Source: Pyrinomonadaceae bacterium (lineage in GTDB: Bacteria > Acidobacteriota > Blastocatellia > Pyrinomonadales > Pyrinomonadaceae). Taken from it: 64,000 nucleotides of DNA. The notes below the pieces were generated by a model. That model was given only the letters and a program-made list of their open reading frames with translations, was not told where the DNA came from and ran no database searches. A program made the translations under genes and the position numbers. Location of the stretch: contig JAJTWY010000002.1 of the NCBI GenBank assembly GCA_021463165.1, positions 1 to 64,000 on the forward strand. Reading direction: 5' to 3'. Shown here one piece after another: positions 1-15,526 of the stretch. Within the stretch, counting starts at the first letter, position 1, and the number at the start of each line of letters is the position of its first letter.

Positions 1-601
1 GAGAGACCCGTCGACGAATACCTTCGGCGACGGCGATCTCAATGTTGCCGACGTTGCTGTCGCCAGGCTCTATGCCCTCGGGCTGCTGCCTCCGACACCC
101 GCAGCCGGGCCGACCACCTTCGTTGTCAGCTCTGCAGATCCGGTAGATGCTCTCAGATCGGGCGGTCGGGATCGCAGGTCGCTCAGCTTCGGTGAAGCTG
201 AGGCCGGGGCTGACGGGCTGATCCGCGTTCCGGTCGAGATGGTCTCGACGGGCGACGAATCGGGCCTGAGCTTTAGCGTCGATTGGGATCCAACCGTCTT
301 CCGTCTGGTCGAAACACGGGCCGGAAAGGAGGCACCGGAAGGAGCTTATCTGGGCACGAATACGACGAACGTCGAAAAGGGTTCGATCGGCGTGCTGATC
401 GATGCCGTTGGCAGGTACGAGGCGGGCAAGCGTCAGATATTGACGCTTGTCTTCGAACCTGCGGGCGGTGCCCCGACCGGTGACTACCCGATCAGGCTCA
501 CCGACACGGTTGTTCCGAGGTACGTCTCGACACCCATGGGAGCTCCGTTATTCTCGACCTTCGAGGAAGGAAAGCTGAGCATCGGAAGCCGTTACAGATA
601 A
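1..601 (+). CDS. Secreted dockerin-like plus cohesin-like protein, 3' end (partial)
   Basis: The reading frame is open from base 2 of the window, so this is the C-terminal end of a longer protein. The first visible residues (GDGDLNVADVAVARLYALG) look like one dockerin type I / EF-hand-like repeat with Asp/Asn calcium ligands. A Pro/Thr linker follows, then about 130 residues resembling a cohesin fold: an F-x-V-x-W-D-P start, a hydrophobic core strand ending in LTLVFEP, and a closing strand before GKLSIGS. Such domain pairs in non-cellulolytic bacteria usually belong to large extracellular modular proteins. The exact role is unknown because the N-terminus is missing. A strong hairpin terminator follows at 628. 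Confidence 0.6.
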   Translation, partial: RDPSTNTFGDGDLNVADVAVARLYALGLLPPTPAAGPTTFVVSSADPVDALRSGGRDRRSLSFGEAEAGADGLIRVPVEMVSTGDESGLSFSVDWDPTVFRLVETRAGKEAPEGAYLGTNTTNVEKGSIGVLIDAVGRYEAGKRQILTLVFEPAGGAPTGDYPIRLTDTVVPRYVSTPMGAPLFSTFEEGKLSIGSRYR

Positions 602-2464: not shown

Positions 2465-5400
2465 TCATTCCAATCCGGTGAAATTGAGATCGGAAACATT
2501 TCCGCTAAAAGTCATCGTCCGCGGGGCAAAACGATAGCGCTTCGAGCTGACGCTGATAACATACTGAACACCGGTCGGCACATTCGTGAAATTGAAGACG
2601 CCGAACGAACTCGTAGTCGCCGTCCGTCTGGCGCCCTGCGGATCGGTCATCACGACCAGAGCATTACGCAGATTGATCCCCGTCGGCGTCACGACCCGGC
2701 CTCCGACAGTCACGTTCGTTTGAGCCTGACATGCGGTCGATAAGACGACGTCATCAATTAGCCAATCGTCGCTCCCTGCCGTACCTGCCGGACGCGAATA
2801 GTTGAAACTCAACTGTCTCGCCGCACCGTTCGCAAACGCTGTAAGATCCACCGTACGCTGTGTGTATGCAGCCTCGGCCGCCGCTGGTTCATTGACGGTC
2901 TGAACGACCGTGCCGTCAACGGTTATCGTTAGCACCGTGCTCGCCGGAGCGGTGGCACCGGCAACTCGAAGGTAATAGGTAAGCGTCGCCGTAGATCCGG
3001 CCGGAATGGTGATCGTCTGCCGAACGGTTCCCTGCTCGGCATTTGTGCCCGAGCCGACACCGTCGAACCAAACGAAGCCGCCGCCGGTTCTCGCCGGCAA
3101 GATCCCGCCGCAACTCGCCTGGCTGCAAAGAGACGTACCAAAGGCGGTCGAGGTCGAACTCCAGTTCGGGTTGGTCCCGGTAGCCGTTGTCGCCTCGAAA
3201 CCTCCGTCGACGACGATATTCGCATTCGGTGTACACGCGGGCACTGGTGTAGGCGATGGTGTCGGCGTAGGCGTCGGGGTCGGGGTCGGTGTTGGCGTTG
3301 GTGTTGGTGTTGGTGTCGGCGTAGGAGTTGGAGTTGGGCCTCCTCCTGCCTGCAATTCGTAGGCACCTCGTCCGTATGTCGCGATCTGAATGAGACCGCT
3401 TGCCTGAGACGTGAATTCCATTATCGGAACAGGGGGCAGACCGTTATTGAAGACCGACCAACTTGCGCCGCCGTCTGTTGATCTGAAGACTCCGACATCG
3501 GTTCCGGCGTAGAGTGTCGTTGGTACCGATCGGTCGATCAGAAGAGCGTTGGTTGGAATGTTCGGCAAGTCGTTGCTTATGTCTGTCCAGTTCGCACCGG
3601 AATCCGTCGAGCGGAAAACATGCCCGCTTCCGTAGCCCGACACGGTTAGATACACAATGGCCGGGTTGGTCGGGCTGACCGCGATACTTCGTATCGAACG
3701 ATCCGGCAGTCCAGCCGTGATATCAGTCCAATTTACCCCACCATTCGTACTGACCATCGCTCGTCCCTGGGTAGATCCGGTGTAGATCACGTTTAGATCG
3801 CTCTTGGCGATGGCGATCGCGCTCAAGACGTCGTCGCCGCCCTTCGTCTGATCGAACATACCGCCCGGCGCCGTCCACGTCGGTGGGGTCCCACCATCGA
3901 GATTCCTGCTTAGGTCATCGCAATCGGTACAGATAAACAACCGCCATGACCCTGAATAGATCCGGGGATCTACGCCGTTGCTGACGATCGGCGGATAAAA
4001 TCCGATCCGGGCTCCGTCGTCCTGCTCACCAAACACCTCGGTGGTCGCGATAGTAGCCGACGTTCCTGTGCCGTTGTTCGTGACTCGTCCGATGTTGCCG
4101 TTAGTGTAGCTCGGAAACACCATGGTCGGATTCACCGGGTTGACTACGGACTTGCCGCCGTCGCCGCCGACGAATTCAGTCCAGCCGTTGCCCGGGGCGA
4201 CCCGGCGTTGAGTACCATTGTCCTGAGCGCCGCCGTAGCTCCGTGTCGGATCGGTCGGATGCACGCTGATGCCGATAAACTGCGTGAGCGACAGCGTTTG
4301 GTTCAGCGACGTAAAGGTCGTGCCGCTGTTTGTTGTCTTAAAGATACCGCCGTCATTGCCGGCATAAAACGTCGTCGATGATCCGGGCTCGAACGCAAAG
4401 GCCTGCTGGTCGGTGTGCATCTTCTGCAATTGCTCGGTAAATGTGCCCGGATCGTAAGGCGGCGCAAACGAGTTGTTCAGGTTGGTAAATGTCACGCCGC
4501 CGTCGGTGCTTCGGAAGATATCGCGGGCACCTATATAGATCGTGTTGGGATCGGTCGGACTCGCCGCGAGATAGGTGTTGTAACCGAACTGGCCCGGATC
4601 GAGAATATTATTCGATATAGCACCGCGATCGCTGAACGTCGCACCAGCATCGTTACTTACCTCGACCCTTAATTCCTTCGGCGGGCCGTCAGTCCCGAAA
4701 TATACATATACTCGGTCCGGGGCCGCGGGAGTGACGGCGACGCGAATATCCCTGGTCGCAGTCACGCTATCTGTGTAAGGTGAGGCAAGTACGTTGGTCC
4801 AGGTCTGGCCCCCGTTCGTCGATCGGAAGAGTCCGCGGGGCGCGGCGGCGCTGGTTCCATACTGAAGAGCTGCATAAATGATCTGCGGATTCGTCGGGTG
4901 GATCGCGAGATCGCTGGCCAGCCCCTCGATCGTTGGACTCCAACTCACACCACCGTTCGTTGAGACAAGGATGCCGCCGAGGCTAGTCGGCCCGCCTGTC
5001 GCATTCAGAAGACTGTGCAATGCGAGATAGACTCGGTTTGGATCGGTGGGATCGACGAGTATTCGGGTTGCCTGCACCGTCGTGGGGAACGGATCGTTGA
5101 CCCTCGTCCAGGTCGCACCCGCGTCATTCGACCTCAAAACGCCTGTTCCCCAATAGCCGTTGTCGTTGTCGCCGAGGCCGGCATAAACAATGTTTGGATC
5201 GCTCGGGGCAAAAGCAATTGTCCCAACGGCGAGATCGACCAGTGAATCGGAGACGGGAACGAATGTCGTGCCGCCGTTCGTCGAGCGCCAAATGCCGCCG
5301 GTAGCTCCCGCGACAAGTATCAGCTGAGTATTCGCCGGCGACACAGCGATCGCATTGATCCGCCCCGAAACCGCGCCGCCGGGACCGTTTCCGGCTGTCG

Positions 5401-6013
5401 GTGCCGGTCCGATAGCGGCCCAGGTCGCCGCCGCACCGTCGGGCTTGGAAAGCTCACCACGATCGAGTACTTCCTGCCAGGCTTTGCGGCGGGCATTCTC
5501 GGGCAGCTCATTGAAAGGGTACATGCGCTGCGAGAGAAACCAATCGGATCGCCCGTTCGGGTTTTCTTCCTCAGGAGCCTTGCGTGCAAAGGGCCTCCTC
5601 AAAAGGTCAGTGTCGGCATTGGACCTATATTTCTCATCAACCAGGATGATCGGATCGTTCGAAGGCTGAGTCGCTGAAAGAAGGGTGTCGCTAACCGACT
5701 GAGGTTTCGAAGGAATGGAATCGGGAAGGAACTTCCGCCGGGCTGCAGCTCGACGAGTCCGGGTAGAGCGTCTGCCGCGGTCGATCTCAGTTTTCCCGAC
5801 CGCATTTACATCCGGTTCATCTGACTCGACCATCGGAGGGGACGGGAAGCCGCTTTCCGGTTGTCCATTCGACATCGCTCGCGGCGCCTCGTAACCCTCA
5901 TCACCATTATCTTTGCCCAAAAAAAATGCATTACGGACCGACGTTATGCTCAAGGCCAGTGAAATGCCGATAGCCAGTGTCAAAAGCGCTCCGATAGCCA
6001 GACGATGCCTCAT
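2465..6013 (-). CDS. Large secreted BNR-repeat (sortilin/Ycf48-like) protein with Thr-Pro linker and shared C-terminal domain
   Basis: 1182 residues. An N-terminal hydrophobic segment (about 7-25) is a signal peptide or anchor. Residues about 200-900 carry ten or so Asp-box repeats of the form S-T-N-G-G-x-x-W/F (for example STNGGVSW, STDGGASW), which build beta-propellers of the sialidase/sortilin type; no sialidase catalytic set is visible. A Thr-Pro linker (encoded at 3246-3337) precedes a jelly-roll-like domain (VDGGFEA ... DDWLIDDVVL) with carbohydrate-binding-module character. The last ~85 residues are a carboxypeptidase-regulatory-like beta sandwich ending in GLE, almost the same as in the next two upstream proteins. 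Probably an extracellular adhesive or scaffold protein; the ligand is unknown. AGGAG lies 14 bases before the start. Confidence 0.8.
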   Translation of the reverse strand: MRHRLAIGALLTLAIGISLALSITSVRNAFFLGKDNGDEGYEAPRAMSNGQPESGFPSPPMVESDEPDVNAVGKTEIDRGRRSTRTRRAAARRKFLPDSIPSKPQSVSDTLLSATQPSNDPIILVDEKYRSNADTDLLRRPFARKAPEEENPNGRSDWFLSQRMYPFNELPENARRKAWQEVLDRGELSKPDGAAATWAAIGPAPTAGNGPGGAVSGRINAIAVSPANTQLILVAGATGGIWRSTNGGTTFVPVSDSLVDLAVGTIAFAPSDPNIVYAGLGDNDNGYWGTGVLRSNDAGATWTRVNDPFPTTVQATRILVDPTDPNRVYLALHSLLNATGGPTSLGGILVSTNGGVSWSPTIEGLASDLAIHPTNPQIIYAALQYGTSAAAPRGLFRSTNGGQTWTNVLASPYTDSVTATRDIRVAVTPAAPDRVYVYFGTDGPPKELRVEVSNDAGATFSDRGAISNNILDPGQFGYNTYLAASPTDPNTIYIGARDIFRSTDGGVTFTNLNNSFAPPYDPGTFTEQLQKMHTDQQAFAFEPGSSTTFYAGNDGGIFKTTNSGTTFTSLNQTLSLTQFIGISVHPTDPTRSYGGAQDNGTQRRVAPGNGWTEFVGGDGGKSVVNPVNPTMVFPSYTNGNIGRVTNNGTGTSATIATTEVFGEQDDGARIGFYPPIVSNGVDPRIYSGSWRLFICTDCDDLSRNLDGGTPPTWTAPGGMFDQTKGGDDVLSAIAIAKSDLNVIYTGSTQGRAMVSTNGGVNWTDITAGLPDRSIRSIAVSPTNPAIVYLTVSGYGSGHVFRSTDSGANWTDISNDLPNIPTNALLIDRSVPTTLYAGTDVGVFRSTDGGASWSVFNNGLPPVPIMEFTSQASGLIQIATYGRGAYELQAGGGPTPTPTPTPTPTPTPTPTPTPTPTPTPSPTPVPACTPNANIVVDGGFEATTATGTNPNWSSTSTAFGTSLCSQASCGGILPARTGGGFVWFDGVGSGTNAEQGTVRQTITIPAGSTATLTYYLRVAGATAPASTVLTITVDGTVVQTVNEPAAAEAAYTQRTVDLTAFANGAARQLSFNYSRPAGTAGSDDWLIDDVVLSTACQAQTNVTVGGRVVTPTGINLRNALVVMTDPQGARRTATTSSFGVFNFTNVPTGVQYVISVSSKRYRFAPRTMTFSGNVSDLNFTGLE
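3246..3337. repeat. Thr-Pro codon repeat (hexamer-like VNTR)
   Basis: Degenerate 6-base repeats of GTN-GGN (plus strand) encode about 14 Thr-Pro units in the minus-strand protein. Similar to the longer tract at 10105-10262. Confidence 0.8.
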
Positions 6014-6125
6014 ATTTTCTGTTTCGTACTCCTTATTTTTGGTCAGAGATCCCAGGTGCGTCGGAGATATCTGTACAGACAGCGATGCGAATCACAGATC
6101 GACAAACCTTTCCGATGAATCGGGC

Positions 6126-6153
6126 TGTATAATACACCCTGTCGCTGAATAAA
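6126..6153 (-). promoter_or_regulatory. Candidate promoter for the 1182-aa surface protein
   Basis: On the minus strand TTTATT (6153-6148), 16-base spacer, TATACA (6131-6126), about 110 bases before the start at 6013. It lies in the only gap of appreciable size (199 bases) within the surface-protein gene run. Confidence 0.35.
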
Positions 6154-6212
6154 CGAAGTGAAATGCGGCTAAAGCGGAATTTTATGACTTCTTCTGAAGC
6201 CCGGTTATAAGC

Positions 6213-8687
6213 TCATTCGAGCCCGGCAAAGTCGAGACCGCTCACGGCCGATGTAACGACCACGGTTCGCGGTGCAAAGCGATAGCGTTTCGAGCTGACC
6301 GAAACGATGTATTCGACTCCGGTTTGAACGCCGTTAAAGGTAAAGATCCCAAAGGAACTCGTCGTCGCCGTCCGTCTGAGACCTTGCGGGTCGGTCAGTA
6401 TCACGGTCGCGTTGCGCAAATTCAGTCCGGTTGGCGTCGTCACGCGGCCGCTGACAGTTACAGGAGGCGGCGGAGCCGTTTGTGCCTCGAAAGCGCCGAT
6501 GTCGGAACCGTCGCCATTCTGTGCATTTGGAAAACCAAGATCAATAGGCCGCGCAAATCCCGATCCTCGCTGGTCGGTCGCGGAGCCAGAGCTGTTTCCG
6601 GCATCAAGTGCCGAACTTATTGAGAGCAATGCGTGTGTTCGCGTCGGCCCGCCATTGTCGCCGAGCGGAGCAAGGCCGGCTTCCGCGTTCACCTTATCGG
6701 TCGCTTGCGTCAAAAAGCCGCCGCCCTCGTCGTTGGTTAGATTGAATCCCTCTGAGGTGATGGTGGCAGCCGCCCCGTTCGAGACAACCGTCCGCAGATT
6801 TGGCCCGGTGTTGTTGGCGGCTATTGTGTTTCTGAGCGTTATCACCGCGTTCGCCGATTCGGAATTTCGGCCAATGGCGACGAGCCCGCCTCCCGCATTT
6901 ACCGCCGCCGTATTTGCTGCAACCGTAGAATTGACGAGTCGAACGGTTCTCGTGCCGCTCGTCGCATCCAGCGTCAAAGCTCCGGTCGCCGTACCCGTTC
7001 CGCCCGCGGAATTCCCGCTTATCGTGACCTCGGTGAGCGATGCATTCGTATTGCGGATGAACAAGCCGCCGCCCTGCAGCGACGCCGAGTTCGTATCGAT
7101 CGTGGATCGCAGGATCGTGACCGAAGGAATGGCTGAGACCGAAATGCCGCCGCCGTTCGCGGCACTGTTCGCACGCAGGGTTGATGCAGTGATGGTGAGA
7201 GGAGCACCGGTGACATGGATCCCGCCGCCAAAACCGCCAACGGCCGAAACGTGATTCCCCTGAAGGATCGTGTCCGAGATCGACAGCGGGCCCGTTCCGG
7301 CAGAAATGCCGCCGCCGTTTCCCTGCGGATGCGTGGTTTGATTCAGCGTGATCACCGAGTTCGATACGGTCAACGGGCCTAGATCGCTCAAGATCGCTCC
7401 GCCGATGCGGTTCGCGGTATTTCCCGTTATCGTGCAGCCGATGACCGTGAGTGCCCCTTCGAAACTGTCGATACCGCCTCCGCCGCCGAAGCTGCCCCCG
7501 GGCGACACATTCCCCGCTATCGTTGAATTGGCGACAGTGAGGTTGACGAAATTGCTCTCGATCCCGCCGCCAAAATCGTCATCAGGCGCTCGGCCATTGG
7601 TTATCGCGAGACCCGAGATGGTGATATTTATTAACGGTGACGAGCCGCCAAGATTGAAGATGCGGCTCGCATTATTGCCCGAGACGGTGAGCAGGTTCTG
7701 GCCGGGGCCGGTTATGGTCACCGACCGAACAACGCGGAGTTCCCCGCTCGTGAGCGTGATGGTCTGAGGCGTGTTGAACAGCGGGCCGAACGAGATGCTG
7801 CCGCCGGACGCAACCTCTGCGATCGCCTGACGAAGACTTCCCGGCCCGTCGTCATTCGTACTGGTAACAACGGCCGAATTTGACGTTGGTGTCGGCGAAG
7901 GCGTCGGAGTCTGGCCCGAATTGACGGCATAGGACGGCCCGGTCGTGAAGTTGCCGTTGCCTGGCCCGACACCGCCTAGCGGAACATTGAGGCTGTCGAT
8001 GATCGTATCGTTATCGATCACATCCAGACGCAATGTCCCGTCGCCCGTGCCCGTGTTCACTGTCACCGAATACATCGCTCCGCCGCCGGAAACGCTGACC
8101 ACGGACGCACCCGTAAGCCCGTTCGCCGTGACCGCAAAGTCTGCCGCATCCACCTGTGTAACGCCCGTGCTGAAATTGACCAAAAAGCCGACATTGGTAT
8201 TATTCATCGCCGGGTTCGGGCTGGTTCGCTGGATGAGATCGACGCGGGGGTTGGTCGGTTCGAGGGTGACGGAATACGTCCCGCTCTGGCCCGGAGCCGC
8301 CGAACTTGCGACTATCGTGTACGTGCCGCTCGTAGGGATCATGAAAGCCGCTATTCTACGAATACCGCTTCCTGCCGTAACACCGGTCGCCAGCACCGTT
8401 CCGCCGGGATAACTTCCCTGGACGAGCCGGACATCCGCAGCAAACGCTTCTGATCCCATCAGAATATTGACCTGTTCACCTGCCGTCCCATCGAACGTGT
8501 AACCGTCGTAGAGCGCGGTGTTCGCATCGATGCAGTCGCCGCTTTCGAGTGCACCGATCACCGTCTGGCCGATCGTGAGCGGGATCGGAGCACAAACCGA
8601 AGGCGAGTCGCCGCGCTCCGAGATCTGCGTCCAAACGGCCGCCGCCAGAAGAATAAACAAGAGGCACGTAAAGATGGATCTTGGCAT
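6213..8687 (-). CDS. Secreted parallel beta-helix protein (choice-of-anchor Q type) with shared C-terminal domain
   Basis: 824 residues. Signal peptide at 1-20. Residues about 30-150 resemble a PPC-like beta sandwich (YDGYTFDGTAGEQV ... SGTYTIVAS). An Ig-like segment follows, then a short Thr-Pro-Ser linker near 260. Residues about 275-700 form a right-handed parallel beta-helix with repeated N-S-T-I-x-x-N-x-A-x-x-G-G-G coils, starting with the GPGSLRQAI signature and closing with the choice-of-anchor Q end (LGDNGGPTRTHALL ... DQRGSGFARP ... [12 protein letters not shown]). The C-terminal ~80 residues match the modules of its two neighbours and end in GLE. No lyase catalytic residues are identifiable, so a structural surface role is more likely than an enzyme. 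It starts 69 bases after the 1751-residue protein. Confidence 0.8.
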   Translation of the reverse strand: MPRSIFTCLLFILLAAAVWTQISERGDSPSVCAPIPLTIGQTVIGALESGDCIDANTALYDGYTFDGTAGEQVNILMGSEAFAADVRLVQGSYPGGTVLATGVTAGSGIRRIAAFMIPTSGTYTIVASSAAPGQSGTYSVTLEPTNPRVDLIQRTSPNPAMNNTNVGFLVNFSTGVTQVDAADFAVTANGLTGASVVSVSGGGAMYSVTVNTGTGDGTLRLDVIDNDTIIDSLNVPLGGVGPGNGNFTTGPSYAVNSGQTPTPSPTPTSNSAVVTSTNDDGPGSLRQAIAEVASGGSISFGPLFNTPQTITLTSGELRVVRSVTITGPGQNLLTVSGNNASRIFNLGGSSPLINITISGLAITNGRAPDDDFGGGIESNFVNLTVANSTIAGNVSPGGSFGGGGGIDSFEGALTVIGCTITGNTANRIGGAILSDLGPLTVSNSVITLNQTTHPQGNGGGISAGTGPLSISDTILQGNHVSAVGGFGGGIHVTGAPLTITASTLRANSAANGGGISVSAIPSVTILRSTIDTNSASLQGGGLFIRNTNASLTEVTISGNSAGGTGTATGALTLDATSGTRTVRLVNSTVAANTAAVNAGGGLVAIGRNSESANAVITLRNTIAANNTGPNLRTVVSNGAAATITSEGFNLTNDEGGGFLTQATDKVNAEAGLAPLGDNGGPTRTHALLSISSALDAGNSSGSATDQRGSGFARPIDLGFPNAQNGDGSDIGAFEAQTAPPPPVTVSGRVTTPTGLNLRNATVILTDPQGLRRTATTSSFGIFTFNGVQTGVEYIVSVSSKRYRFAPRTVVVTSAVSGLDFAGLE

Positions 8688-8756
8688 TTACGGGTTACCA
8701 GGTCGTGTATTGGTAAGGAAATTATACACAAGCGGCAACCGGCTCGCGCCTTTTAT

Positions 8757-11700
8757 CTATTCCAGCCCGCGAAGTTCGAGGTTCGCGACATTTCCGTTCA
8801 GCAGGACGTTTTGCGGAGCAAATCTATACCGCTTCGACGAGACCGTCAGCAAGTAAGTCTGGCCGGTAGGCAGATTCGTAAAGAGATATTCGCCGAAGCT
8901 GCTCGTCGTCGCAACCCGTACAACCCCCTGTGGATCAAGAAGATTTACGCGAATGCCGCCAAGCACCGAACCGCTCGGACGAAGCACTCGGCCGCCGATC
9001 GAAGCCGTCGCAGGCGGCGGCTCAGATTGCAGCTCAAGAGCCCCGATATCGGCAGCGTCACCTCCTGAGGCATTTGGAGCAAGGAGATCGACGACACGCA
9101 GGAATCCCGGGCCGCGCTGATCGTTGATCGACCCCGAACTGTTGCCCGCGTCGATCGCCGGGCTGCCGAAGAGCAAGGCATGCGTCGGTGTCGTTCCGCC
9201 GTTGTTTGCTAGAGGAGCGAGCAAGGCGTTCATATTGACCCGATCGGTTGCCTGATTTAGAAACTCGTTGGTCGGATCATCTGTCAGGTTATAGCCCGAC
9301 GAAGTGATCGTTGCCTGACCGCCGCCTGCAGACGATCGCAAATTTGGCAAGCTATTGCCTGCGACGATAGTGTTACGCAGCGTTGTCGTCGCCACAGTTC
9401 CGGCGCCTTGCGCGAAATTGAGAACGGCGCCGCCACTGCTGCCAGGGTCCGTATTATTGGTAACGGTGCAATTGGTGAGCTGCACGGTCGCGGTGCCGTT
9501 AAAGGCAAAGTTGAAGATGCCCGCTCCATTTCCACCTGATTGATTTCCTGAGATCGTACTATTCGTCAAAATGGCAACACCCGGACTTATATTGCGAAGC
9601 CCGGCACCGCCGCCTGATTCGTTTACGCTATCGCGGATCGTACTGCCCGTAACCGTAAGCGTACCGCTATTCTGGATCCCGCCACCGATGCCGCGGTTGC
9701 CGACAAGGACAGAGTTCGCAATGGTCAATGCGCCGGCATTCCGTACTCCGCCGCCCTCGCCTGTGAACGCATCGCCATTCGCGATGGTCATTCCGCTTAG
9801 AACAGCCGTCACTCCGGAATTGATCGAGAATATTCGAAAACGAACGTCTGGATTGCTGCCATCGCGCCGCACGGTCAGAAGATTAGCTCCCGGGCCAGTG
9901 ATCGTCACGGCCTTTGTTATCTCCAGCTGCCCACTCGTCAGCGTGATCGTCTGCGGAGCGTCCAGTCTTTCCGGATCGGTCGGGTCCGGCACGGCGAACA
10001 GCGGCGAGAACGTGATCGTTCCGCCCGCTGCGACATCTGCGATCGCCTGCCGTAAGCTGCCGGTTCCGCTATCGTTAGTATTTGTCACGACAACATTGCC
10101 CGGCGGAGTCGGTGTAGGCGTCGGCGTCGGAGTTGGAGTCGGCGTCGGAGTTGGCGTCGGCGTCGGTGTTGGAGTCGGCGTCGGCGTCGGTGTTGGCGTC
10201 GGCGTCGGAGTTGGCGTCGGAGTTGGCGTCGGAGTTGGCGTCGGAGTTGGCGTCGGAGTTGGAACCGGTGGTTCGTTTTGTTCCTCGTACGCACCGATGT
10301 CGCTGCCGTCGCCTCCGGCGGCGTTTGATATCGCCACCAGATCACGCGGACGCTGCTGGCCCCGCTGATCGGTCGTCACGCCCGAACCGGAATTATTGCC
10401 CTTATCGATCGCCGGACTGCCCGCGAGCAAAGTTTGAGTCTGAGTTTGGCCGCCGTTGTTTGCGAGCGGGCCGAGTAGCGGCGTAGCAACAATATCCGTT
10501 GACGCAGGCGAGAACACGCCGTTGAAGTTGTTGCTCAGATTGAAGCCCTGTGTCGCGATCGTTGGAGTTCCGCCCGCCTCGATCGTGACCGCAAGATTGT
10601 CGGGCGTGTTGCCGGCGACGATCGTGTTGCGAAGCGTTGTTAACGGTGCAGAGAAGTCCTGCGACCTCGTCATAACACCGCCCGTCGGACCCGAATTGGC
10701 GGTAATGGTGCTGTTGACGATATTCAGTCCACCGCCGCCGAAATGGAGGATGCCGCCGGCACCCCAGAGTGGCGCTGGCGAGGCGCTACCGGTAGCCGTG
10801 TTGCCGCTGATGGTGGTGTTTACGATCCGCACAATGCGGCCAGGGGCCCCCGAATAGAATATCGCACCCGATGAGACACCCGTATTGCCGCTAAAAGTGC
10901 AATTGGTGATGGTCGCGTTCCGTCCTAAAAAGATCCCGCCGGCCACGCCCTGATTGCCAATAATACTGACATTCGTTAGAGTTAGGTCGCTTACGGTGGT
11001 TAGTGGGCCGTCACCAAAGTTAGGACCCCGAGCACCCGTGAGCGTTAGTCCGCTGATCGCGATCCCATCGGTGCCGCCTAAATCGGTGAAGATTGCAGCA
11101 GCCGAACCACTCGGATTCGCCCGGACGGTGAGCAGGTTCGCACCCGGCCCGTTGATCGTGACTCCGTCAGAGATTAGGAACCCGCCACTCAGGGTGATAG
11201 TGCCGGTGAGCCCCGGCTGGAAATTGATCGTGTCCATCGTGATCCTGTTCGCGTTCGTGTCCAGTATCGCCTGACGAAGACTGCCGGGGCCCGAGTCATT
11301 TAGGTTTGTCACGGTCCGCGTTATCGGTGTGATATTGTTCACCCAGGTATCCGACGCGTCGGTTGCGAGCAGGTTCCCGGCAGCGTCGCGGATGCCCGAA
11401 GTGGCGGCAACCAGCGTCACGGTATAGGTGCCCGGCCGTTCCGTTCGATCGTCGTCGGCATTTACTGTGTACGTGATGTTATCGGTGGTTGTGACGTTTC
11501 CAATAACACCGCTAGCGGTGCCACCATCGCGTGACAGACGAAGATCTCCGGCACCGAATCCACTAACGGGTTCACTGAACACAACCACAAAGTCAGTGGT
11601 TATGGTACGCGGGTCGGGCGAAACGTCGATGATATCGGCGGTTGGAGGGGTAATGTCGATGGTTACGGTAAACGTCCCGATCGTCCCCACCGCGACGAAG

Positions 11701-14012
11701 TTGCCTGATGTGTCGGCGACCTGATTCGCCTGCATGACGATGTTGTAGATTCCGACATCCGAGGCATCCCAGGTGCCGCCCGGCGGCGTGAAGTTGTAGG
11801 TTGCGATTCGCGGTGTTCCGTTCCCGGGGTTATCGACGCTGACAAAAGCCGGCGTCGCGCTAAATCCTCCCGGGCCGGTGACTATGATATCGCCGGTATT
11901 AATTGTGCTGACGTTGATGGCGACGTTGTCGTTGTATTGAACCGTCGCGGTGTGGGTCGTCGCTCCCGTCGTCGTCACATTTGGAGCCGTAGCAGGTGTT
12001 GCGGTTGGAGCGATCGTGTCGGGAATAGTCACCGTGAACGTCCCGATCGTACCGGCTGCGACGAAGTTCCCCGCCGTGTCCGCCACCTGATTCGCCTGCA
12101 TGACGATATTGTACGTGCCGTTGTCGCCGAAATCCCAGGTGCCTCCCGGCGGCTGGAACGGGTAATTCGCCGTCCTGGGCGATCCGTTACCGCCAGGCGT
12201 AACGTTCTGAAAATCCGTCGCAACGTTGAAGCCATTGGGCCCCGTGATCCTGATATCGCCAAGCCCGACCGTGCTGGCATTTATCGCGGTATTGTCGGCA
12301 TATGTTACCGTCGCCGTGTGCGAGTTACCTCCGGCCGTTGTTACATTGGGTGCGGTTCCGGCCGCCGTCGGGACGGTCGAATCGTTCAGGGTCAACGTGA
12401 GCGAGTAGCTGCCAAAATCTTCAGCATTTAACGTGCGCGCCAGGATCGTAAAGGTCCCGGTCGTTCCGAGCGTAAGAAAACCCGAACCGGCCGGAATGCG
12501 AGAATCAAGGCTGCCAGTTCCATCATCGTCATTGGCCACAAAAGTACCGCCGGGAAAACTTCCTGAATAGAGTTCAAGAAATGAATCGTTCTCTGTCGAA
12601 GTTAGTGTGATGACGACCTGCTGACCGGTCGTTCCGCTGAAGGTATAGGCGTCGTATTGCGGTGCAGATACCGGGAGATAGCAGTCACCGACCGCGATCG
12701 AACCGTTAATAGTTTGGCCGAAGGCTATGGGCGTTGCGGATGCGGCGCAGGCGGGCAGTGTCTGGGCTTCGACCGCACCAATATCCGTCTCGTCACCGCC
12801 GGACGTCGGCACGGGCGAGATGCTGGTCGTCCTGGGTTGTCCTCTTTGATCCGTCGACACGCCCGAGCCCGCGTTACTTCCCTTGTCTATCGCCGGCGAT
12901 CCATTGAGCAGGGCGTGCGTCTGCGTCGTTCCCCCATTGTTACCGAGCGGCCCAATGAAAGGATTTTGTGGCGTCGAGGTCCCGCTCTGGTCGGACGTCC
13001 CGCCAAACGTAACCGCTCCGCGATTGCCGATGAGGTTAAACCCGTTGGAGACGAACGACCCCGATCCCTCGGTCCTTGTGTCGGGGATCGTCGTGTTCGA
13101 TTGATTGGCGGCGACGATGCTGTTCTTGATCGTTACCGTCGTGTTCTCGGCCTTGACGCCGCCTGCTCCGCCGGTCACGTTCGACTGATTGTTCGTTATA
13201 GTCGAATTCACTATCAAAACCGTCCCGCCGAACGAAAAAATGCCGCCGCCGGTATTTACAGCCGTCGCCGTATTTCCGCTGATCGTCGACGACCGCACCG
13301 TCAGAGTTCCGAGATTGTCGATCCCGCCGCCCGACTGGTTGACCTGGGTCGTATTTCCCGAGATAGTGCTTCGATCCAGCGTCAAGGTCCCGATATTCTC
13401 GATCCCGCCGCCGAAACCGGTCGATGTGTTGCCCGAAATTGTGCAGTTCGTGATCGTCAGCGTTCCCGCGTTCAAGATCCCGCCGCCGTCGCCCGACACG
13501 TTGCCGTTCGCGATCGTTACACCAGAGATGGACGAAGTTTGGCCGCCCGCAAATTCGAGCACACGGTAATCGCCACCCGTATTTCGCCTGATCGTCAGCG
13601 AGTTCGCTCCCGGCCCGGTCATCGTCACCGGACCCGAAATGGCCGGCAAAGCTCCGGCAAGATTGACCGTTCCGGTCACCGTAATGTTTATCGTGTCGGC
13701 ACCGCCCGCCACATTCGCATCTATGATGGCCTGACGAAGCGAACCTGCACCGGCATCGCTCGTATTTGAGACGGTAAACGTCGCTTCGGGACGGTTCTCT
13801 TCGATCTCTTCATCAGGAGGCGTCGATTCGGGGCGTGGAAGTCCAATTCGGTGGTTCTGTCCCGAAAAACCGAGATCAAGGGCCGAAACGATCACTTCGC
13901 TCCACACGGTGATACCTGTCCCAATTCCAACGAGTGTCAATATGACAATTGCTATGCGAACCTTTTCCGTAAAAAGCGTCGATATCGGTCCGCCCACTCG
14001 ATTTTTTGACAT
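8757..14012 (-). CDS. Giant secreted multi-beta-helix surface protein with long Thr-Pro linker and shared C-terminal domain
   Basis: 1751 residues. A membrane-spanning or signal segment lies near 17-40. The chain has three beta-helix modules, each opening with a GSLRQAI signature and ending with a choice-of-anchor Q closure ([12 protein letters not shown] ... SPAIDKG ... DQRGQ ... DIGAVE). Between modules one and two lie a PPC-like domain ([14 protein letters not shown]) and two tandem repeats of about 110 residues beginning at T-A-P-N-V-T-T, plus a further Ig-like domain ([20 protein letters not shown]). A tract of about 26 Thr-Pro units separates module two from module three. The C-terminal 80 residues are the common GLE-ending module. 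The start is backed by GGGAGAAG upstream. First gene of the minus-strand surface locus; probable adhesin or sheath protein. Confidence 0.82.
10105..10262. repeat. Long Thr-Pro codon repeat (VNTR)
   Basis: About 158 bases of six-base GTN-GGN units (plus strand), with higher-order 12- and 18-base copies, encode about 26 Thr-Pro units of the 1751-residue protein. The tract keeps frame with any whole-unit change, so linker length can vary without breaking the protein. Confidence 0.85.
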
Positions 14013-14263: not shown

Positions 14264-15526
14264 ATGAATACCCGTACTTCTCGCAGTCCGCTCATTGTCC
14301 TGCTTTTGGTCGCAACGATCCTGGCATCGCCTGCGTCGTGGGTCGCGCAATCGAAGCCGCAGAAGGGCACACCACCGACCGAGAGCGGCAAGAAGAACCA
14401 GCGGCCAACTCCGATGAGCGAGGAAGAGAAGAAGAAGCTCGAAGAGGAGAAAAAGCGTCTCGAAGAAGAAAAGAACGCCGTTATCGACCCTGATGTGGAG
14501 AAGGTCGAATCGAACATCGTTCTGATCGATGCGGTCGTGCTGAACAAGAAGACGGGACAGATAATTGGCGGGCTGAAGAAGGGGAATTTTGCGATCTTTG
14601 AGAACGGCGTCAAGCAGGATCTGACGAGTTTCGCGACGCCGGAGTCGCCGATCACGGTCTCGCTCGTTGTTGAATTCAGCAAGTGGACCGAGGTCTTCGG
14701 TTCCGCCCAGGGCGGCTATTTCGAGCCCGGGACGAGCGAGGTCATAAAGCCGGTCGCCTACTTCCTCTCGCGATTTATCAAGCCGCCGAACGATTACGCC
14801 TCGGTCATCGCGTTCGATATACGTCCGACACCGATCACCGACTTTACGAACGACCCGGCACGGCTTAACCAAACCGTGGACATCCTTGTCCGCAACCGTC
14901 CCGCGTTTCGCGAAACGAACCTGTTCGATGCGCTAAAATTCGCCCTCGTTGGCGGCATGGGCGATTCGGTCATACTCGAGAACTCTGAAAAGGAAAAGGC
15001 GATGTACGGTGGGATGGTCGATGTGAAATCAAAGCGCCGCGCCATCATCCTCGTTGCCTCGGGTATCGATACATTCAGCAAGATCAACTACGACCAGGCC
15101 CGACGCGTGATCCAGGAAGCCGGCGTGCCGATCTACATCATCAGCACCGGCAACCTCTTCTACAAACGCTATGAGCCCTACATGGCGGCGACCGATGGAT
15201 TGATCGGCCAGCCGGGCCGCCTTACGTTCCTTCAGGCGCAGAATACGATGAACACCTTCGCCAAAGAATCGGGCGGAGTGCATTTCCCGATGACCTTCGA
15301 AGGCGAGATCCCCGGATATCTTAATTCGATCAACGCCCTTCTCCGCAGCCAGTACTCGCTCGCCTACGACCTGCCTGAAAAACACGAGCCGGGCAAAAAA
15401 TATAAGATCGAGGTCAAGGTCGATGTCGATGGCGACGGAACCTTCGATGATAAGAACTTCGTCGTCCAGCACCGGCCCTTCTACTCGACGCCTAAACCGG
15501 ACGATAAGGACAACAAAAAGAAATAG
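14264..15526 (+). CDS. Secreted VWFA-related domain protein (acidobacterial type)
   Basis: 420 residues. Signal peptide at 1-28 (ending ASWVAQ). Residues 50-72 are a very charged Glu/Lys helix (SEEEKKKLEEEKKRLEEEK). Residues about 80-400 match the VWFA-related proteins typical of Acidobacteria: an N-terminal strand pair (VLIDAVVLNKKTGQIIGGLKKGNFAIFENG), then a Rossmann-like VWA fold. At the position of the metal-binding D-x-S-x-S of VWA domains the sequence has E137-F-S139-K-W141, so metal-dependent ligand binding is doubtful. The partner is unknown. Transcribed away from the surface-protein locus across a 251-base divergent gap. Confidence 0.75.
   Translation: MNTRTSRSPLIVLLLVATILASPASWVAQSKPQKGTPPTESGKKNQRPTPMSEEEKKKLEEEKKRLEEEKNAVIDPDVEKVESNIVLIDAVVLNKKTGQIIGGLKKGNFAIFENGVKQDLTSFATPESPITVSLVVEFSKWTEVFGSAQGGYFEPGTSEVIKPVAYFLSRFIKPPNDYASVIAFDIRPTPITDFTNDPARLNQTVDILVRNRPAFRETNLFDALKFALVGGMGDSVILENSEKEKAMYGGMVDVKSKRRAIILVASGIDTFSKINYDQARRVIQEAGVPIYIISTGNLFYKRYEPYMAATDGLIGQPGRLTFLQAQNTMNTFAKESGGVHFPMTFEGEIPGYLNSINALLRSQYSLAYDLPEKHEPGKKYKIEVKVDVDGDGTFDDKNFVVQHRPFYSTPKPDDKDNKKK

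Follow-up and report, generated by a model that had tools for sequence, protein, structure and literature searches.

A folded C-terminal domain of unrelated exported proteins as a candidate sorting or surface-attachment tag in Pyrinomonadaceae-type Acidobacteriota

The window analyzed here is the whole stretch of 64,000 nucleotides at the start of contig JAJTWY010000002.1 of a Pyrinomonadaceae bacterium (assembly GCA_021463165.1), and it contains three neighboring minus-strand genes, separated by 69-199 bases, whose products end in the same C-terminal module. The first gene (2465-6013) encodes protein 1, which has 1182 residues and shows an N-terminal signal, a BNR/sortilin-type propeller, a TPTPTP linker and the module, which forms the final 88 residues (2468-2731) and ends in GLE. 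The second (6213-8687) encodes protein 2, of 824 residues, with a signal peptide, a choice-of-anchor Q domain and the module (6216-6479). The choice-of-anchor Q domain, found with NCBIfam (NF041518; residues 671-736, positions 6480-6677), abuts the module directly, and the passenger part, which has no Pfam match, is plausibly a single helix. The third (8757-14012) encodes protein 3, of 1751 residues, with an N-terminal hydrophobic signal, three stretches matching Pfam Beta_helix, three choice-of-anchor Q domains (the best-scoring at residues 1178-1244, positions 10281-10481), a TPTPTP linker and the module (8760-9023), which is the most divergent of the three and also ends in GLE. The sizes, architectures and location given for these proteins in an earlier note, made from the sequence alone, were all recovered.

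Alignment of the three C-termini (about 88 residues) shows 39 invariant positions in about 90 columns and pairwise identities of 48-69%, which bears out the near-identical module of about 80 residues described in that note. The invariant columns include [14 protein letters not shown] and the terminal GLE. Pfam reports a borderline CarboxypepD_reg match in two of the modules; in the third it gives a weak match to SdrD_B. The genome to which the window belongs (G000; 3.66 Mb in 80 contigs, 97.5% complete) was searched with a profile made from the three modules, which recovered 34 copies with E values of at most 2e-18, the next match appearing only at 2e-7. The similarity of the three C-termini is therefore far beyond chance, and the module is not confined to the three neighbors. 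Each of the 34 copies was read: every one closes its protein as the final domain, no protein has a second copy, and 0-3 residues follow the last model column. Their endings are GLE in 24, GLQ in four, GQE in three, and GFE, GQQ and PQE in one each. The 13 weaker profile matches that we fetched are ordinary CarboxypepD_reg domains, and all of them lie near the N-terminus (residues 28-127), mostly in proteins of 770-1330 residues with endings resembling those of TonB-type receptors. G000 thus holds two separate populations of one fold, one N-terminal and the other strictly C-terminal.

The number of copies may be an undercount, because several contigs start within repeated passenger segments that break the assembly. 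A cohesin-like fragment at the first base of the window (2-601) starts identically to contig C4 (L049:2-838), and contigs C21 and C23 (L057 and L058) both start in a near-identical segment preceding a module. At its other end, the three-gene cluster adjoins, in divergent orientation, a plus-strand gene (14264-15526) for a VWA domain protein of the Acidobacteria-specific TIGR03436 family.

An AlphaFold2 model, obtained from an alignment of window and contig-derived modules, predicts seven strands for the module of protein 2, with a mean predicted local distance difference test score of 93.8. In structure it matches the transthyretin-like domains found in metallocarboxypeptidases, pilin domains of CnaB type and, in a SusC transporter, the N-terminal extension. 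The transthyretin-like domain of human carboxypeptidase D (5aq0) was matched with Z 11.1 and a root-mean-square deviation of 1.6 over 77 residues, and the duck enzyme (1qmu) with Z 11.5 and 2.5 over 81 residues. The gathering cut-off of PF13620 (32.3 bits) was reached by 23 of the 32 proteins scanned, the others giving 29-31.9 bits or no match. According to these Pfam and structural matches, the modeled fold is transthyretin/CarboxypepD_reg-like, as the earlier note had allowed when it mentioned a carboxypeptidase-regulatory fold. Two loops, beta3-beta4 (TTSSFG) and beta5-beta6 (SKRYRFAP), hold many of the strongly conserved residues, together with the C-terminal strand. In addition, 21 of the 34 modules show a weak similarity, below the cut-off (best 9e-7), to part of the model of the anammox S-layer glycoprotein Kustd1514 (NF052345).

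The passengers of the module, which include enzymes and binding proteins, appear mutually unrelated and extracellular in type, as judged from their domains. Pfam identifies among them a GH10 xylanase with CBM4_9, an M36 fungalysin, an S8 subtilase, an M12B reprolysin, two di-haem cytochrome c peroxidases, a glucose/sorbosone dehydrogenase and a SpoIID protein, as well as laminin-G/PD40, FG-GAP, BNR and DUF5122 propellers, cohesin domains, Calx-beta, DUF11 and beta-helices. Several of these proteins have a Pro/Thr linker before the module. An N-terminal hydrophobic segment was evident at once in 26 of the 30 open reading frames whose 5' end is not cut by a contig edge, and 29 of the 30 genes have an N-terminal signal once one late start and two frameshifts are resolved: L032 has a clear signal from a later methionine, and in L033 and L054, both frameshifted, the upstream piece starts with a signal-like N-terminus. 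The only gene without an assigned signal, L039, appears truncated or frameshifted. Two module genes, encoding a DUF5650 repeat protein and a beta-helix-type protein, are split by frameshifts (L272:2160-4761 and L272:11955-14546), which are either errors of the metagenome-assembled genome or pseudogenes.

A sample of 297 genomes from the phylum gave strong copies in every one of the 13 that belong to the own genus and, within the family, in some further genera. Genomes with many copies (7 to 66 matches) are limited to about a dozen genera, within 80 genomes of the family. Three matches from genomes with a single one were read: two are not C-terminal (L075 and L076), and the third, from another family (G026, L074), is. 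Seven genomes, which cover the own genus plus three more, were sampled among their best profile matches, and 60 of the 60 modules read are C-terminal, with 0-14 residues after them. The check proposed in the earlier note, whether the domain is always C-terminal and fused to varied secreted domains, thus came out positive for 34 of 34 modules in the own genome and 60 of 60 in relatives, on very diverse exported passengers. Its emphasis on the terminal GLE held for the three window proteins but not for a general signal, since the final residues differ by genome and congeners end in AEP, AQ, ALP and others. As a local dialect, GLE belongs to G000 and one close relative, G157, while the core common across genomes consists of SGRV, RNA, TxSFGxYxF, SKRYxF and a DF near the end.

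Within a genome, modules on unrelated passengers are more alike than are modules on homologous passengers when compared with a relative. On dissimilar passengers, mean module identity is 49.8% within a genome versus 42.0% between genomes. In all 12 pairs of homologous passengers that span the boundary between GLE and non-GLE genomes, most GLE-side modules on unrelated passengers are closer than the module of the homolog; in 11 of the pairs this is so for all but at most one module, and the least clear pair gave 28 of 33. Between orthologs inside the GLE dialect, the modules are mostly more similar (57-85%), which is what vertical descent would predict. Such concerted change fits adaptation of the modules to a shared partner.

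A second C-terminal domain was found from the tail of a BNR protein in the relative G105 (C17:74441-74752). It is an FG-GAP propeller of about 280 residues, typically ending in VPNxFV[RPK], and it is terminal in the 20 proteins read (L273-L292) from G105, G141, G283 and G343, which have 67, 25, 25 and 118 matches, respectively, at about two matches per protein. G000 and G157 have one match each, and none was found in the four DUF4214-type genomes searched. Four passenger families carry the module in G000 or G157 and the FG-GAP propeller in a relative: a BNR propeller protein (68-73% identity), the reprolysin (66%), a di-haem peroxidase (55-59%) and a syntenic protein beside a pilMNOPQ-type operon (44%). 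The last is a small exported protein adjoining the end of the operon, with the module in G000 (C8, L209:9337-14409) and G157 (C16), and the propeller in G105 (C12). The alignments stop near the start of the module, between six residues ahead of it and twelve past it, the latter when the local alignment continues further. With replacement at the domain boundary in four families, one passenger can thus take either tag. In exchanging unrelated C-terminal domains exactly at the boundary, these swaps amount to natural domain-exchange experiments, and they suggest that proteins of this kind have a general slot at the C-terminus, which the current annotation, 'carboxypeptidase regulatory-like domain-containing protein', hides.

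In sister lineages another domain, DUF4214 (PF13946), closes many secreted proteins. It has no match in 13 of 14 module-rich genomes and a single match in the other, whereas all 14 module-poor genomes of the same family carry 4-71 matches, so that mutual exclusion is near-complete across these 28 genomes. Twelve of 20 DUF4214 copies sampled in module-poor genomes are at the extreme C-terminus, seven lie inside YD/Rhs-type proteins and one runs off the contig; DUF4214 was therefore rejected as a pure C-terminal tag, only a subset of its copies being tag-like. In the module-poor genome G312, the closest homolog of the window's BNR protein (54% identity) continues into sequence that, named by eye, is CarboxypepD_reg-, BACON-, Calx-beta- and DUF4214-like. 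DUF4214 is a suggested exchange partner for the module on the same passenger.

None of the known machineries searched for could be tied to the module. T9SS (type IX secretion system) membership found no support: none of the NCBIfam matches of the 34 modules is a T9SS C-terminal domain (CTD) model, Por_Secre_tail (PF18962) gave nothing over its curated cut-off in 12 genomes, and neither SprA (TIGR04189) nor PorV (NF033709) was found in ten genomes, with weak controls, as SprA matched no control genome and PorV only one, below the cut-off. The best structural matches of the module list no T9SS CTD, an absence that does not exclude similarity. Type I secretion, whose substrates have a C-terminal signal and lack an N-terminal Sec signal, does not agree with the N-terminal hydrophobic signals of nearly all complete proteins. 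G000 has two secretins, one followed by pseudopilin-like genes and the other in the pilMNOPQ-type operon. The former, on contig C56 (L269:7502-11188), has about 876 residues and is followed by two proteins with pseudopilin-like N-termini, in a T2SS (type II secretion system)-like locus that is a possible exit route for the passengers. Both secretins are candidate exit routes and neither is tied to the module. A secretin is present in 28 of 28 genomes and does not separate module-rich from module-poor ones. The secretin adjoining module genes in G000 and G157 was dropped as a functional lead, the adjacency being probably only synteny, because it belongs to the pilMNOPQ-type operon and the corresponding neighbor in G105 carries the FG-GAP tag. 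The link with a particular secretion system, which the earlier note had proposed to check, was accordingly not established.

We consider it probable that the C-terminus common to these proteins serves one clade of Pyrinomonadaceae-type Acidobacteriota as a dedicated, folded targeting domain, used for lineage-specific sorting or surface attachment after Sec export. The observations behind this reading are the terminal position, the exported and unrelated passengers, the genome-level dialects and the boundary-exact replacement by another terminal domain. In the sequence of events that we propose, the passenger would be exported by Sec through its N-terminal signal peptide, as the sequences support, and the domain of about 85 residues, a predicted autonomous fold, would then fold independently at the C-terminus, in several proteins behind the Pro/Thr linker. 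An outer-envelope receptor, common to all these proteins and changing between species, would recognize the conserved loops ([17 protein letters not shown]) and the C-terminal strand; concerted evolution and conservation are the reasons for proposing it. The passenger would thereby be handed to, and retained on, the cell surface, the role of the module being in crossing or staying on the outer membrane, by translocation or only by attachment. Lineages can exchange the module for other C-terminal domains on the same passenger, as seen with the FG-GAP propeller and suggested for DUF4214. On a wider and more tentative reading, which we regard as possible rather than probable, these domains would belong to a sorting or export system of the outer envelope, as yet undescribed and distinct from the known numbered secretion systems, which accepts at least two unrelated C-terminal tags, the module and the propeller of about 280 residues, with DUF4214 in the same role in sister lineages.

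Several points weigh against a targeting domain. We infer the receptor and retention steps, since no receptor, translocon or protease was found. Gene conversion alone could be the source of the concerted evolution, and the terminal residues vary outside two species. The modules of relatives were the best profile matches and not a random sample. In the RpoB tree the module-rich genomes form one clade (SH-aLRT 100) among DUF4214 lineages, so that the exclusion of DUF4214 is probably about one replacement event and not many. Finally, the structurally unlike domains in the C-terminal slot could be binding domains and not a translocation signal.

This last point leads to the strongest alternative, less probable than a targeting domain yet to be taken seriously, in which the module is an autonomous extracellular binding domain that holds enzymes on the cell or matrix, through the own exopolysaccharide, an S-layer or a shared substrate, after a general route such as the T2SS-like one and with no dedicated sorting machine. 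The fold class is that of many adhesive/CnaB and CarboxypepD_reg domains, the weak sub-threshold S-layer similarity is found in 21 of the 34 modules, the module interchanges with a propeller fold often used for binding, and the genome has a secretin with pseudopilin-like genes and a pilMNOPQ-type operon. Binding domains are, however, usually also N-terminal or internal, whereas here 94 of 94 modules are terminal; the concerted change across a species is consistent with one receptor common to all copies, though equally with a shared glycan. It is unlikely that the module is a structural cap or a freely shuffling domain spread by recombination with no localization role. Recombination could produce both the within-genome homogenization and the boundary swaps, and the fold is a common add-on domain, but a domain that is exported-only, strictly terminal and single-copy, with conserved surface-loop motifs, would not be expected, nor would replacement by other strictly terminal domains be expected for a neutral shuffler or a fold-specific cap. 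That the module is a divergent T9SS CTD read by an undetected T9SS is very improbable, as the shared logic of a folded C-terminal beta-sandwich on varied Sec-exported proteins, together with the conserved C-terminal and beta3-beta4 loop motifs and the species incompatibility of T9SS CTDs (PMC11285876), is set against the searches described above, the transthyretin/CarboxypepD_reg/CnaB structural matches and the reported absence of T9SS genes outside FCB (Fibrobacterota-Chlorobiota-Bacteroidota) phyla (PMC11285876).

A targeting tag on dozens of proteins per genome would at once supply a list of candidate exported or surface proteins for a group that is widespread in the environment, and the sequence dialect together with the swap partners would be a handle for finding the machine. 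In the literature searched, which left most subscription journals outside, we found neither a description of such a tag in Acidobacteriota nor anything on how this family routes or attaches its extracellular enzymes. C-terminal sorting domains are already known; what is new here is an apparently different fold class, matched by no sorting-domain model and served by no known machine.

Compared with known domains, the module has the same fold as CarboxypepD_reg (PF13620), but ordinary members in G000 are N-terminal and mostly in TonB-type-receptor-like proteins, whereas the module forms a terminal subfamily of its own, whose signatures are [14 protein letters not shown] and a C-terminal DFxGLE. 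The module itself has no NCBIfam model above cut-off. The choice-of-anchor domains (choice_anch_Q) of proteins 2 and 3 are neighbors of the tag and not the tag itself. The logic of their naming at NCBI is that they stand next to C-terminal sorting signals of varying kind, and the proteins here match that pattern. PEP-CTERM, GlyGly-CTERM, MYXO-CTERM and LPXTG are likewise C-terminal tags on dozens of unrelated exported proteins per genome, but they consist of a short motif, a transmembrane helix and a basic tail and undergo processing by an enzyme of sortase type, as described for MYXO-CTERM (PMC11980579), whereas the module is a soluble domain with neither helix nor basic tail. The highest 19-residue hydropathy over the 34 modules is 1.30 (median 0.86), and because there is no transmembrane segment, and GLE/GLQ endings lack a basic tail, a tag of sortase, exosortase, rhombosortase or MYXO-CTERM type was ruled out.

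The T9SS CTDs (Por_Secre_tail, PF18962/TIGR04183, and type B, TIGR04131) are the system that the earlier note had named as a model for a sorting or anchoring domain, and here the pattern stood, in C-terminal position and varied exported passengers, while the match to a T9SS CTD model did not. The module appears to differ from them in its fold, with seven predicted strands and transthyretin/CarboxypepD_reg-like matches where the T9SS CTD is described as an Ig-like 3+4 beta-sandwich, and it differs in a host phylum outside the reported T9SS range. The conserved beta3-beta4 loop and C-terminus parallel the functional motifs of T9SS CTDs in the same two places (PMC11285876), a parallel that is only suggestive, the beta3-beta4 region being partly conserved in ordinary PF13620 domains as well. 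Both are folded beta-sandwiches of about 75-85 residues with which many unrelated Sec-exported proteins end, and both show species-specific dialects (PMC11285876 for the T9SS side), so that the module would work by analogy with a T9SS CTD and not as an identified member of that family.

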